Below, piece after piece: positions 19,529-23,621 of a DNA stretch of 34,559 nucleotides. Both the position numbers and the translations under genes were made by a program. The stretch comes from an uncultured bacterium (lineage in GTDB: Bacteria > Verrucomicrobiota > Kiritimatiellia > RFP12 > UBA1067). Each line of letters begins with the position of its first letter. Within the stretch, counting starts at the first letter, position 1. Location: positions 1 to 34,559 of the forward strand of contig CACXPT010000020.1 of NCBI GenBank assembly GCA_902769585.1. Reading direction: 5' to 3'. The notes beneath the pieces were generated by a model, which was not told the DNA's origin, did no database searches, and saw only the letters and a list, made by a program, of their open reading frames with translations.

Positions 19529-19603
19529 GCCTCCTTCGTCTATCGGCTAGGACATCAGGTTCTCATCCTGAGAAGAGGAGTTCGACTCTCCTAGGAGGTG
19601 CCA
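19529..19603 (+). tRNA. tRNA-Glu, anticodon CTC
   Basis: 75 nt with encoded CCA, 6 nt after tRNA-Leu. The acceptor stem is GCCTCCT/AGGAGGT with a G-U first pair and discriminator G. The anticodon stem TCAGG/CCTGA encloses TTCTCAT, giving anticodon CTC (reads GAG). The T arm is GAGGAGTTCGACTCTCC. It is charged by the GluRS encoded at 30753-32063. Confidence 0.94.
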
Positions 19604-19636
19604 ATCGCAGGGCACACGACGAAACCAAGAAAACAA

Positions 19637-21574
19637 ATGAGCGTTGTCTGGAAATCCTGCTGGCGAATCCTCAAATTCTCTCTGCTGCTTCTTTTGGGCG
19701 CTATAGTCCTCGTCTTGGCCTCGGTCACCTTCTTCGACCAGCCCGTGCCGCAACGGCTGCTGCACAGGATCACCGACTCCGTCTCCAACGACGACTTGCT
19801 CGTGAGCGCCGAGTCGGCCTCCTTCCGCCTATCGTACGGACTCAGGATCCGCAACTTGCGCGTCTTTGACCGCAAGAAGACGGCCGCTGATCCGATCATC
19901 GCCGCATCCCTCGTCGATGTGCAGGTCAACTTCTGGCAACTGCCATGGCGCCGCGAGACGATCCTGAAGCACGTCACGGTGACGGAACTGAAATATCCCC
20001 GTCTCGGCGACGGCTACTACATACCCGACTCCATCGAGTTCCCAGGGCAGCCGGACTTCAAGGAGAAAAACGAGCCCATAACCCTAGACCTCCCCACCGT
20101 CCGCCCCTTCCAACTCACGCTGATCCAGCCGAACATACTATCCGTCACTCCGAAATTCGTGGAGATCCCTCATGTCGAGTTCACGGAAAAGTCGATGGTC
20201 GCAAGGGGCTTGCACCTCCAGTGGATCGACTCCGAGGCTCTTATGACGCTTGACGGCGAGTGCGCACTAGACCTCGACGCGCAGCTCGTCAGCGGCAGGG
20301 TGCACGGCCTCGCACGCCAGAGCAACATCCTTCCTATGCTCAGAGCGCTCGAGATCACCAACTCCTACGCCTTCATAGAAAGCTTCACGAAGGTGGAGCA
20401 GCCCGTCGTCGCCAGTTGCGACTTCAACGTCAATCTCCGCAACAACGACCTCAACATTCTTCTCGATCTCCATCCGACAGGCGGATGCTACAACCAAGTG
20501 CCGCTCAGGAATGCCGACGGCAAGGTCGACATCACGGTATTCGTGCGCGACACCTTCCAGAACGCCCACATCGTCGTCGGACCGGTCGACGCCTATCTTG
20601 CGGACGGCAAGACCATGAACGGGACGATATGCTACGACAACACGAACGACATCGGCTACGTGACGTTCAAGGACATCCGTTCCACCACTTCGCTGTCAAA
20701 CGCCCTGGCCGTCGCCGACGTGCTGAACGACGGCACGCTCGACTGCCTCTCCCTCTCCACTCCTCCGACCATCACCCTCGACGGGCGGCTCGCGGTCGAT
20801 CCAACATACGCCGCCACGAACTTTCTCGACGGCACGCTCGCCTTCGACAAGGGATCATTCTTTTCCATTCCTCTCACCAAAGCCTCGACCGAGTTCCACG
20901 TGCGCGGAACGGACATCACCTTCTCCAACGCGCGCGCCACGGCTCCGCACGGCGGGACGGTAACTGGCGATGGCGGCATCTCCATCCCCGACTTCAAGCA
21001 GGAAAAGGCGTCCTTCACGGTTTCAGTGAAGTGCGCCAGCGTGCCTCTCACCGACTTCGCCGACATCTTCAAGTTCGATGTCGGCGACAAGCACGGCACC
21101 ATCTTCGGGAATGTCACCCTCTCTGGTCCTCTCCAGACCAATCTCTCCAGCCGCATCAGCGGGCAAGGGCACGTCGAATGCCGCAATGGACACCTTGCGC
21201 AGATGAAGGTTTTCGCTGGCCTCACCGACTATCTGGCCAAACACGTCCCCGGCATCGCTTCATTCGTCAACCAGTCGCGCGGTTCCTTGGACTTCTCGAT
21301 CACGAACGGCATCTTCCGAACCGAGAACATCCACATCGACGGCGGATTCTTCTCGATCATCTCCTCCGGCACATACGACATTCCGAACGACAAGCTCGAC
21401 TTCTCCGCGCGCGTGACCCTTACCAAGAACGACGGTTTCTTCGCAACGCTCGCAACCCCTATCACATGGCCGTTCGCCAATCTCTCGAAGATGCTGCTAG
21501 ATTTCAAGATATTCGGCTCGCTAGACAAGCCGGACTGGAAATACAACAAGAGCCTGATGGATAGGTTCAAGTAG
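19637..21574 (+). CDS. AsmA-like inner-membrane-anchored envelope protein
   Basis: 645 residues from the ATG at 19637. A single N-terminal membrane anchor (ILKFSLLLLLGAIVLVLASV) is followed by about 600 residues of repetitive beta structure. The sequence style, with alternating hydrophobic strands, DVQVNF near the start and a C-terminal GQGHVECRNGHLAQMKVFAG, then SLDFSITNGIFRTENIHIDGG and FKIFGSLDKPDWKY, fits the AsmA/TamB-like superfamily. These form grooved bridges that move lipids between inner and outer membranes of diderm bacteria. The role is inferred from the family. A GTG start at 19598 is unlikely because it lies inside tRNA-Glu. There is no clear Shine-Dalgarno. It probably shares a transcript with the tRNA pair 33 nt upstream, and its TAG stop is followed directly by a heptamer repeat tract leading into rnhB. 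Confidence 0.75.
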   Translation: MSVVWKSCWRILKFSLLLLLGAIVLVLASVTFFDQPVPQRLLHRITDSVSNDDLLVSAESASFRLSYGLRIRNLRVFDRKKTAADPIIAASLVDVQVNFWQLPWRRETILKHVTVTELKYPRLGDGYYIPDSIEFPGQPDFKEKNEPITLDLPTVRPFQLTLIQPNILSVTPKFVEIPHVEFTEKSMVARGLHLQWIDSEALMTLDGECALDLDAQLVSGRVHGLARQSNILPMLRALEITNSYAFIESFTKVEQPVVASCDFNVNLRNNDLNILLDLHPTGGCYNQVPLRNADGKVDITVFVRDTFQNAHIVVGPVDAYLADGKTMNGTICYDNTNDIGYVTFKDIRSTTSLSNALAVADVLNDGTLDCLSLSTPPTITLDGRLAVDPTYAATNFLDGTLAFDKGSFFSIPLTKASTEFHVRGTDITFSNARATAPHGGTVTGDGGISIPDFKQEKASFTVSVKCASVPLTDFADIFKFDVGDKHGTIFGNVTLSGPLQTNLSSRISGQGHVECRNGHLAQMKVFAGLTDYLAKHVPGIASFVNQSRGSLDFSITNGIFRTENIHIDGGFFSIISSGTYDIPNDKLDFSARVTLTKNDGFFATLATPITWPFANLSKMLLDFKIFGSLDKPDWKYNKSLMDRFK

Positions 21575-21644
21575 GTGAAAGGTGAATGGTGAAAGGTGAA
21601 AGGTGAAGGGTGAAAGGTGAAGGGTGAAAGGTGAAGGGTGAAAG
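21575..21644. repeat. Ten tandem 7-nt units (GTGAAAG type) at the 5' end of rnhB
   Basis: Ten head-to-tail heptamers GTGAAAG, GTGAATG or GTGAAGG begin one base after the stop of the AsmA-like gene. The ninth unit supplies the GTG start codon of rnhB at 21631, and an in-frame TGA lies just upstream at 21625. Because 7 is not a multiple of 3, unit gain or loss downstream of 21631 would shift the rnhB frame. Confidence 0.92.
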
Positions 21645-22383
21645 GAGTGGCATATCGCTTGAATATGAGCGGGCGTTTGGCGAAGATGCCGTCGTGATGG
21701 GGATCGACGAGGCGGGGCGCGGACCGCTTGCCGGCCCTGTGTTCGCCGCGGCTGTCTCGGTGCCTCTTGATCGCGCGGCCGAACTGCTAACCGGCGACTG
21801 GAATGCCGTCAACGACTCCAAGAAACTCTCCCCCGCCCGGCGCGACGCCATTGCCGCCGCCATCAAGTCCACCCCTGGCTGCACCTTCGCAATCGCCTCC
21901 GCATCCGCCCTAGAGATTGACCAGTCGAACATCCTCCGCGCCACCCACCTCGCCATGCGCCGCGCCGCCCTATCCCTCGCCGAAAAACTTGGCTTTAGAC
22001 TCACGGAAACCGCCGCCGTACCAAGCACCAAGCACCAAGCACTAAGCACTCCTTTCCGCGTCCTCGTCGACGGATTACCTGTGAAGACTCTGCCGTTTCC
22101 GTCGAAGAATCTCGTGAAGGGAGACGCGAAGTCGCTTTTCATCGCCGCCGCGTCGATACTCGCCAAGACGGCCCGCGACGCCTACTGCCTAGAGATGGAT
22201 GCGCAATATCCAGGCTACGGTTTTGCCGTCCACAAGGGGTATCCCACGCCCGCGCATTTCACTGCGCTGGAACGTCTCGGCCCCTGCCCAGAGCATCGGC
22301 AGAGCTTCGGACCTGTGGCGGAAGCGATGTTCTTCCGCGGGACCGGAAACGCCGACGGGCAGGACCACTCCAATCAGTCCTGA
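21631..22383 (+). CDS. rnhB: Ribonuclease HII
   Basis: 250 residues. RNase HII cuts RNA at RNA-DNA junctions, for example misincorporated ribonucleotides. The family motifs are all present: GIDEAGRGPLAGPV with catalytic Asp26-Glu27, NDSKKLSPARRD, VLVDGLPV with Asp147, ASILAKTARD with Asp183, and YGFAVHKGYPTPAH. The start is a GTG inside a heptamer repeat tract. It is preferred over a Met just before GIDEAGRG because the LEYERAFG segment before that motif is also seen in other RNase HII proteins, and an in-frame stop lies just upstream. A second heptamer tract (22021-22048) inserts about ten unusual residues, at about 131-140, before the VLVDG strand. The 3' end overlaps the convergent murF by 10 nt. 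Confidence 0.93.
   Translation: MKGERSGISLEYERAFGEDAVVMGIDEAGRGPLAGPVFAAAVSVPLDRAAELLTGDWNAVNDSKKLSPARRDAIAAAIKSTPGCTFAIASASALEIDQSNILRATHLAMRRAALSLAEKLGFRLTETAAVPSTKHQALSTPFRVLVDGLPVKTLPFPSKNLVKGDAKSLFIAAASILAKTARDAYCLEMDAQYPGYGFAVHKGYPTPAHFTALERLGPCPEHRQSFGPVAEAMFFRGTGNADGQDHSNQS
22021..22048. repeat. Four tandem 7-nt units (CCAAGCA) inside rnhB
   Basis: CCAAGCA three times and CTAAGCA once, within coding sequence, translated as part of VPSTKHQALST. The 28 nt are not a whole number of codons, so copy-number change by one or two units would frameshift rnhB. Confidence 0.9.
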
Positions 22384-23621
22384 AGGAGCTGCTCGAGGTG
22401 CATCCCGTGCGAGGCCTTCAATAGGACCAGATCGCCCGCCGCGAGATAACCTTCCAGAAAGGTCTTAAGGTCCTTAAGGTCTTTAAAGTCCTTAAGGTTG
22501 TTAAAGTCTTTAAGGTCGTTAAGGTTCTTAAGGTTGTTAGGGGTGTTAGGGGTGTTAGGGTCGTTAAGGTCGTTGAGGTCTTTAAGCGCTGCAGAGAAGG
22601 CGTCGCCCACCAGCAGCACAGCATCAAGCTTTAGACTGATGGCTCGCGCCAGCACCTGCGCATGGTGCTTCGCGCTGCTTTCGCCGAGCTCGAACATGTC
22701 ACCAAGCACCGCGATCCTGCGACCCTTCGCCGGCACCGACGCGAACGTCTCCAGCGCCACCATCATGCTCGTGGGATTGGCGTTGTAGCAGTCGGAGATG
22801 AACGTCGCAACGCCCTTCTCCACCACGCGCCAGCGATCGCCAGGCAGCGCGAAGTCCGTCAGCGCGGCGAGGCACTTCTCCGTCGTCACGCCAAAACGCC
22901 GCGCGCATGCGGCGGCAATCAGCGCGTTCGACACGTTGTGCCGACCAGGGAGACGCACCGCGAGCGCATCGCGAAACGCCGCCGCCTCGGGATCGTCCTG
23001 CGACACCGTAACCACAGGCGCCGCGCTCATCGCGCGCAGGCGCTCGTAGCGGTCGTTCTCGCGCGCAAGAACCGCAAACCCGCCAAGCGGCAACGAACGG
23101 AACATCGTCCCCTTCTCGTCGGCTATCCCGTCCTGCGTCTTGAAGAACTCTATGTGCGCCGTGCCGATGGAGCTGATCAGTCCCACGTCAGGCCGAGCGA
23201 TGTCCACAAGGTACGCGATCTCGCCAGGATGGTTTGTGCCCATCTCCACGACAAGGAAGTCGGCGTCCGGCGGACAGTTGAGGATGGTGAGCGGCAAGCC
23301 GAGGTCGTTGTTGAAGTTGCCCGCAGTCGCGTGCACCTTGAATCCGCCCGCCCTCAGGAAGGCCGCCGTCAGCTCCTTCACCGTCGTCTTTCCTGCGCTG
23401 CCAGTGACTCCAATGACTGTGGCCTTCAGCGTCCTGCGGTACTCGCGCGCAGTCGCCGCCAGCTCTTCCTTGCCGTCTATGATTCCGGCCGCGCCGGCGG
23501 CTTTCGCCTGCGGAATGAAATCGTGCCCGTCCACGTGCTCGCCATTGATGGCGACGAACAGCATGCCCGGCTTAACCTGTCGCGAGTCTAGCGTCGCGCC
23601 GCTGAATGTGATGTTGGACAT
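22374..23621 (-). CDS. murF: UDP-N-acetylmuramoyl-tripeptide--D-alanyl-D-alanine ligase
   Basis: 415 residues. MurF joins D-Ala-D-Ala to UDP-MurNAc-tripeptide with ATP in cytoplasmic peptidoglycan precursor synthesis. The Mur-ligase signatures are in order: substrate-binding N-terminus with DSRQVKPGMLFVAI, P-loop GVTGSAGKTT (71-80, Lys78), GNFNNDLGLPLT (from 101), EMGTNHPGEI, GTAHIEFF, GRHNVSNALIAAA, DCYNANPTSM, VLGDMFELGE and C-terminal LLKASHGMHLE. Residues 346-387 are a run of 14 tripeptides of the LKD/LND/FKD/PNT type, encoded by a 9-nt tandem repeat. They replace the ordinary surface segment between GDAFSAA and the last helix. It is not in a dcw-like cluster. Its predicted promoter is 6 nt from the ATG with no Shine-Dalgarno. 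Confidence 0.94.
   Translation of the reverse strand: MSNITFSGATLDSRQVKPGMLFVAINGEHVDGHDFIPQAKAAGAAGIIDGKEELAATAREYRRTLKATVIGVTGSAGKTTVKELTAAFLRAGGFKVHATAGNFNNDLGLPLTILNCPPDADFLVVEMGTNHPGEIAYLVDIARPDVGLISSIGTAHIEFFKTQDGIADEKGTMFRSLPLGGFAVLARENDRYERLRAMSAAPVVTVSQDDPEAAAFRDALAVRLPGRHNVSNALIAAACARRFGVTTEKCLAALTDFALPGDRWRVVEKGVATFISDCYNANPTSMMVALETFASVPAKGRRIAVLGDMFELGESSAKHHAQVLARAISLKLDAVLLVGDAFSAALKDLNDLNDPNTPNTPNNLKNLNDLKDFNNLKDFKDLKDLKTFLEGYLAAGDLVLLKASHGMHLEQLLQD
22461..22586. repeat. Fourteen tandem 9-nt units inside murF
   Basis: In plus-strand view the units are variants of GTCNTTAAG (for example GTCCTTAAG, GTCTTTAAA, GGTGTTAGG, GTCGTTAAG), 126 nt in all and exactly in frame. On the coding strand they give tripeptides rich in Leu/Phe, Lys/Asn and Asp. 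Copy-number change would lengthen or shorten MurF without a frameshift. Confidence 0.92.

Follow-up and report, generated by a model that had tools for sequence, protein, structure and literature searches.

The gene rnhB (RNase HII) of the DNA analyzed here, a stretch of 34,559 nucleotides referred to below as the window, appears to begin inside a tract of seven-base repeats. This raises the question of how a repeat whose unit changes the reading frame can supply a start codon, and of what such a tract does between two genes. The features concerned are the following.

19598 to 21574, + strand: upstream co-directional open reading frame (ORF) in its longest form, with a GTG start and ending in TAG at 21572–21574
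21575 to 21644, + strand: tract of ten heptamer units, its first base adjoining the upstream TAG (from the sequence and TRF)
21620 to 21624, + strand: likely Shine-Dalgarno (SD) core AAGGG, formed by the end of unit 7 and the first base of unit 8, six bases 5' of the GTG
21631 to 21633, + strand: GTG of the ninth unit, the codon at which rnhB most likely starts
21631 to 22383, + strand: rnhB, encoding an RNase HII of 250 amino acids (NCBIfam NF000595)
22020 to 22049, + strand: second heptamer array, 4.3 copies of ACCAAGC (GTGCTTR family, antisense to the gene), in a variable loop of rnhB

The RNase HII model NF000595 was matched above its cut-off (E 9.3e-61; 205 bits vs. a cut-off of 167), and the profile search returned no NCBIfam match for the upstream ORF at 19598–21574, which our own gene caller starts at 19637 instead of 19598. 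The stop of this ORF (TAG, 21572–21574) lies at the same place in the sister species (G003) and in a congener (G007) when orthologous gene ends are compared. The tract was called by TRF at 21573–21645 (period 7, 10.4 copies, score 118). The original prediction described ten GTGAARG units running from the upstream gene into rnhB; ten units do follow directly after the TAG, but only nine of them fit the consensus, the second being GTGAATG. A folded RNA element was considered at this place and rejected (z of 0.51 for a 161-nt fold, with 138 of 200 shuffles folding at least as well).

The assignment of the rnhB start to unit nine, also made in the original prediction, has stood up well. GTG 21631 is the sole ATG, GTG, or TTG in the open frame 5' of the conserved segment SLEYERAF, because the tract's own TGA (21625–21627) closes the frame just upstream; the frame opens 17 nt before the end of the tract. 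The motif L-[ED]-x-E, located 12 or 14 residues 5' of the G of GIDEAGRG/GVDEAGRG, is present in 12 of the 12 same-genus relatives with a readable rnhB 5' end (G001–G004, G006–G011, G013, and G015; G005, G012, and G014 are unreadable there). With an assumed anti-SD tail, the SD duplex before GTG 21631 amounts to -9.3 kcal/mol, which places it among the strongest 10% of the 563 starts called (10th percentile, -9.2), vs. -1.9 kcal/mol for the later in-frame starts GTG 21694 and ATG 21697, the latter directly 5' of GIDEAGRG. A start at one of these later codons, which would turn the tract into a mere leader and leave KGERSGISLEYER out of the product, would suit the general RNase HII profile, which is matched only from residue 21 onward, but it is quite unlikely in view of the weak duplex, of the motif kept in all readable relatives, and of the 19 codons from AGT GGC onward, which differ between the genome of the window (G000) and G003 by three synonymous and two non-synonymous changes. 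The related claim that the in-frame alternative cuts into the conserved N-terminus has to be narrowed: the segment conserved in the genus would be lost, whereas the general profile would be barely nicked. Initiation at the non-standard codon ATA 21652, also in frame and served by AAAGGAG (21641–21647), is hardly to be expected, despite a duplex of -8.5 kcal/mol under the same assumed tail, since only four bases separate AAAGGAG from ATA and ATA is a rare start codon. In the sister species, rnhB reads ATG CAA GGG AGT GGC ATA TCG CTT GAG, and the matching place in G000 reads GGT GAA AGG AGT GGC ATA TCG CTT GAA; the sister's ATG, two codons 5' of AGT GGC, has no counterpart in G000, where the GTG of unit nine is found two codons further upstream. 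As judged from the sequence, the GTG at 21631 is the best candidate for the start of rnhB, and we infer that it is where ribosomes actually start.

A start codon inside a tract of this kind was expected to suffer a frameshift with a change in copy number between the start and the unique sequence. This expectation failed: each unit contains GTG, TGA, and AAGG/AGGG, and 7 = 1 mod 3, so that copy-number change is no threat to the frame. When 0 to 8 of the ten units were removed in silico, the same in-frame GTG was kept nine residues before the conserved Leu, and it was lost only in tracts with one unit or none. Nearly any tract length is tolerated at rnhB.

The tract is not special to rnhB, because three units in a row are matched 254 times (overlapping matches, 114 + 140) in the same 4.9-Mb assembly, which is 79% complete; the suggestion of a control peculiar to a repair enzyme is not supported, the same tracts being found at many unrelated gene junctions. 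The reversed control pattern gave 0 matches in G000. The sister species has 109 three-unit matches; in a set of 59 genomes (G000 and 58 relatives), the 57 besides these two have two or fewer, and four of them have one or two. In a draw of 387 genomes from the phylum, nine showed a match, and the highest number after G000 was 10, all from one array in G409. Among the genomes searched, abundance of the repeat is therefore restricted to the sister pair, all others having 10 or fewer matches, and GTGAARG tracts were absent from samples of G009 (140 kb), G007 (72 kb), and G001 (80 kb). The reversed control pattern is itself repeated in a few genomes (12 matches in G019, 9 in G058, 19 in G119, and 7 in G217); other heptamers have therefore spread elsewhere. 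In 361 kb of G000 contigs taken irrespective of tracts, 26 exact period-7 runs of at least 19 bp were counted, vs. 0 in one order-1 Markov resample (0 to 2 over all periods); among the other periods in the same contigs, period 8 gave 7, period 14 gave 5, and the rest 4 or fewer. The tracts of G000 are long heptanucleotide simple sequence repeats, more frequent than chance, and a second heptamer family, GTGCTTR, is about equally frequent in this genome.

To analyze the position of the tracts relative to genes, we made our own gene calls from codon scores over 767 kb of sequence in G000 and 246 kb in G003; the called starts are uncertain. The 40 regions of G000 comprise 19 picked around tracts and 21 that were not; those of G003 were either taken around tracts among the matches listed, with one listed contig (C156) omitted, or added because they are the partners of regions in G000, and tract counts refer to merged tracts of at least three units. 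The 46 tracts of G000 divide into 24 sense and 6 antisense between co-directional genes (binomial p 0.0014), 11 antisense and 4 sense within ORFs, and 1 at an edge. In G003 there are 29, with 16 sense and 6 antisense between co-directional genes (p 0.052), 6 antisense within ORFs, and 1 in a divergent gap. Intergenic tracts occupy co-directional gaps in 30/30 and 22/23 cases, respectively, such gaps making up 77 and 76% of intergenic bases; on the other hand, 15/46 and 6/29 tracts lie within ORFs, where stop, SD, and start signals are useless. Sense tracts start within -18 to +12 nt of the upstream stop in 23/24 cases in G000 and 16/16 in G003, vs. 0/6 and 1/6 for antisense tracts (Fisher 1.2e-5 and 2.3e-4), an anchoring that is inflated because any sense tract that overlaps the end of an ORF provides its stop by construction (the upstream gene ends inside the tract in 12/24 and 6/16 cases) and that comes from two non-independent samples with orthologous tracts in common. 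Twenty unselected G000 regions (C60–C79) held just four sense-junction and three antisense-in-ORF tracts. The called distance from tract to downstream start ranges from -14 to 178 in G000 and from -7 to 238 in G003, with self-called starts, and because it varies so much the upstream stop is taken as the anchor of the tract. A start within the tract may be required almost exclusively at rnhB: for most of the other junctions sampled, an ATG or GTG comes shortly 3' of the tract, or the open frame begins beyond it.

The GTGCTTR family, without the signal set of GTGAARG, served as a control: its 27 tracts in G000 show no junction preference (between co-directional genes, 4 are sense and 5 antisense; within ORFs, 2 are sense and 14 antisense; the remaining 2 are at edges), and its sense-junction share of 4/27 is to be compared with 24/46 for GTGAARG (Fisher 0.0024). 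The octamer GTTRAARG, which has the same stop+AAGG grammar and was counted from two units upward, is placed like the GTGAARG tracts, with 5 sense (offsets 3, 18, -1, 11, and 6) and 1 antisense in G000, and 5 sense (offsets 2, 8, -5, 51, and 5) and 2 antisense in G003.

With one assembly per species, sequence variation was compared between species. The anticipated change in tract length is evident: 16 of the 24 sense junctions of G000 can be aligned to G003 (poorly at L076:16998), and 15 of these 16 differ in length. For example, the units by length in G000 and G003 are 10 vs. 4 at L081, 6 vs. 10 at L075, and 5 vs. 2 at L065:12060, with equal lengths at L073. Antisense GTGAARG tracts were equal in two cases and different in two within ORFs, and equal in one and different in one within gaps; GTGCTTR tracts differ in 4/4 cases. 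At rnhB, as at L065:10157 and L066:10111, G003 has instead a GGTTAAAA-like repeat bearing TAA stops at the same place. Between the sister species, the rnhB junction does not keep even the same repeat: in G003 the same TAG is followed by the TAA-bearing repeat, then by a longer segment that includes part of a dispersed element, and then by the ATG. This element, of about 100–200 bp (L076:7720-7930), matches in part on both strands and has many copies in G003, one of which (L134) is the one between the TAG and the rnhB ATG.

A hint of how the arrays may arise comes from L063:10816, where G003 has a single junction, TAT TGA AGGGAG CGACGA ATG, and G000 an array, TGA AAGG TGAAGGG TGAAAGG...; this is the clearest sign, as read from the two sequences, that the unit may be a duplicated stop+SD junction. 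Single stop+SD junctions were found at 15/429 tract-free co-directional stops and 1/86 others in G000, and at 2/124 in G003; they are thus uncommon, and the case for them as a general source of arrays is weak. The position of the A/G base alternates between neighboring units more than expected (123/170 in G000 and 61/90 in G003), which points to a common 14-bp source more than to units that arose wholly independently.

Other repeats have been found in the same places or nearby. In the rnhB loop where G000 has ACCAAGC, a loop read also in L034–L038, G003 carries a CCTTTCA array (GTGAAAG in antisense), and GAACCAC-like heptamer insertions are seen in G013, G009, G004, and G006; different heptamer families are thus inserted in different species, and the loop is short in G007 and some others. 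The minus-strand gene murF contains a nonamer array, AAGGTCGTT (14.3 copies, 22459–22586 of the window), which encodes DLNDLNDPNTPN..., and an array resembling it is present at the matching position in G003. Inside one ORF (L066:11632-11659), a GTGCTTR tract in G000 faces in G003 a nonamer array like TTAGGGTCA, and repeat families are exchanged here at a fixed place, as far as the aligned sequences tell. A stop-bearing heptamer, AGTGAAT, occurs in the congeners G007 (L162:13368-13407) and G001 (L168:4086-4102), 5 nt into the ORF end, and the G007 array is the partner site of the GTGAARG junction L080:10033 of G000. Finally, a short GC-rich element around GGGAGGGNCGCGCTCCTGCGCGNCC (L066:7816-7856; L075:8292-8340), whose middle is an inverted repeat, recurs in a large number of G006 contigs and in a few of those of G007, and it is located within coding sequence as well.

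In the explanation that we regard as probable, GTGAARG is a heptanucleotide repeat specific to this lineage; it serves as translational punctuation that is blind to frame, and at rnhB it has replaced the start codon. In coding-strand orientation and after rotation, the unit consists of a TGA stop and then the SD core AAGG/AGGG, with GTG overlapping the stop (GTGA). Through the shift of one base per unit, three neighboring units give stops and starts in all frames, and a tract between co-directional genes may lengthen or shorten harmlessly because three units cover every frame. At rnhB, the original spacer and start codon would have given way to the tract, and translation would begin from the GTG of the penultimate unit, with the SD core coming from the preceding units. 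Heptamers combining a stop, an ATG or GTG, and one of five SD tetramers represent 0.64% of all 7-mers. The placement of the tracts would then reflect use of the unit's signals, and the arrays may have grown from stop+SD junctions.

A neutral slippage microsatellite, with heptamers that expand or land anywhere and a tract without a role that rnhB merely tolerates, is possible, although we find it doubtful. Under neutrality, genes would lose tracts in the stop-bearing orientation, while a gene end would retain a stop only with a tract in that orientation, and the surviving tracts would thus look anchored; in agreement with such purging, the tracts in ORFs are mostly antisense (11/15 in G000 and 6/6 in G003), exchange of other families is seen at the same loops (the rnhB loop and L066:11632), and the stop-restart chains discussed below show no phase selection. 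However, neutrality also predicts antisense tracts equally close to the stop wherever a separate stop precedes, and in G000 these lie 32 to 361 nt away (6/6), those of G003 lying 3 to 152 nt away; moreover, GTGCTTR lacks a junction preference, whereas the octamers of the same grammar show it.

Alternatively, the arrays could be ladders on which ribosomes couple two genes over a spacer of changing length, an idea that seems unlikely to us. Lineages would exchange the unit (GTGAARG, or octamers such as GTTAAAAG) and keep the stop+SD grammar. After the TAG, ribosomes would restart at unit 1, whose GTG abuts it, add five residues, terminate in unit 3, where TGA and the following GTG overlap, and so proceed in 14-nt steps through units 1-3-5-7-9 to the start of rnhB. 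A chain of mini-ORFs with GTGA overlaps is present at rnhB (21575, 21589, 21603, 21617, and 21631), and it could, on sequence grounds, bridge the 56 nt between TAG 21574 and GTG 21631, where the downstream start neither overlaps nor nearly abuts the upstream stop; the A/G alternation of G000 has the same 14-nt step. A tuning of copy-number parity for such coupling is unsupported, the actual phase being found at 24 of 40 junctions vs. 21 and 24 for the shifted ones. This absence of phase preference also counts against a phase-variable contingency locus, in which slippage in copy number would switch or tune rnhB. Junction tract lengths do change quickly between the sister species, and the stop-to-start spacing varies with copy number, but the start and SD come from the last units and stay constant from 2 to 10 units, and the tracts occur at many unrelated genes. 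Phase variation at rnhB is not supported, and we consider it very unlikely.

If the punctuation reading is right, it offers a simple reason for the spread of a frame-shifting 7-bp unit along operon junctions, and shows a route by which a repeat can turn into the start signal of a gene. It is also a warning that automatic start calls may overlook starts within repeats.

Neither GTGAARG arrays nor a start codon inside such a tract were recognized in the open-licence literature, among the matches listed. The dispersed heptamers that were encountered there have been discussed as possible regulator sites, G-quadruplexes, or slippage products. The general class is that of long simple sequence repeats, of which heptamers are the commonest (Mrazek, 2007, via PMC4679880); the tracts described here share with them a unit of 7, a length beyond chance, and an occurrence in few genomes, and the introduction of PMC4679880 mentions no punctuation role in its account of that study. 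A closer example is the TAACTGA heptamer of marine Beggiatoaceae and some Cyanobacteria and Bacteroidetes (MacGregor, 2015; PMC4679880), likewise dispersed, stop-bearing in forward orientation, mostly intergenic, and oriented toward the start codon, with no functional class of genes standing out. Their forward orientation is shared by the GTGAARG tracts, with the 24:6 and 16:6 sense to antisense ratios given above, although the unit is GTGAARG and not TAACTGA. In the sections of that paper on these sets, they lie within several nt of the start, and their unit has little SD character and no ATG or GTG; for GTGAARG, it is the upstream stop that anchors the sense tracts, the unit has an SD core and a GTG, and the rnhB start is in the tract. 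Another example is the GGGNATC heptamer of Xanthomonas and Nostoc, discussed as a G-quadruplex former (Rehm, 2015; PMC4692102), whose arrays are also dispersed and at gene junctions; unlike GTGAARG, its unit has no stop, SD core, or start according to our own feature check. Stop, SD, and start are also packed together at the co-directional junctions of operons, as stop/SD and 4-nt GTGA/ATGA overlaps, but these are single junctions in the text of PMC2784483 and PMC10666635, not arrays; a spacing of about 20 nt nearly abolished coupling in the account of PMC10666635, and the 56-nt gap at rnhB exceeds it. In the portions of these sources that deal with heptamers, the nearest described cases are the TAACTGA and GGGNATC arrays, in which no unit combines stop, SD, and start, whereas the GTGAARG unit, unlike the heptamers found in print, itself spells a stop, a Shine-Dalgarno core, and a start.
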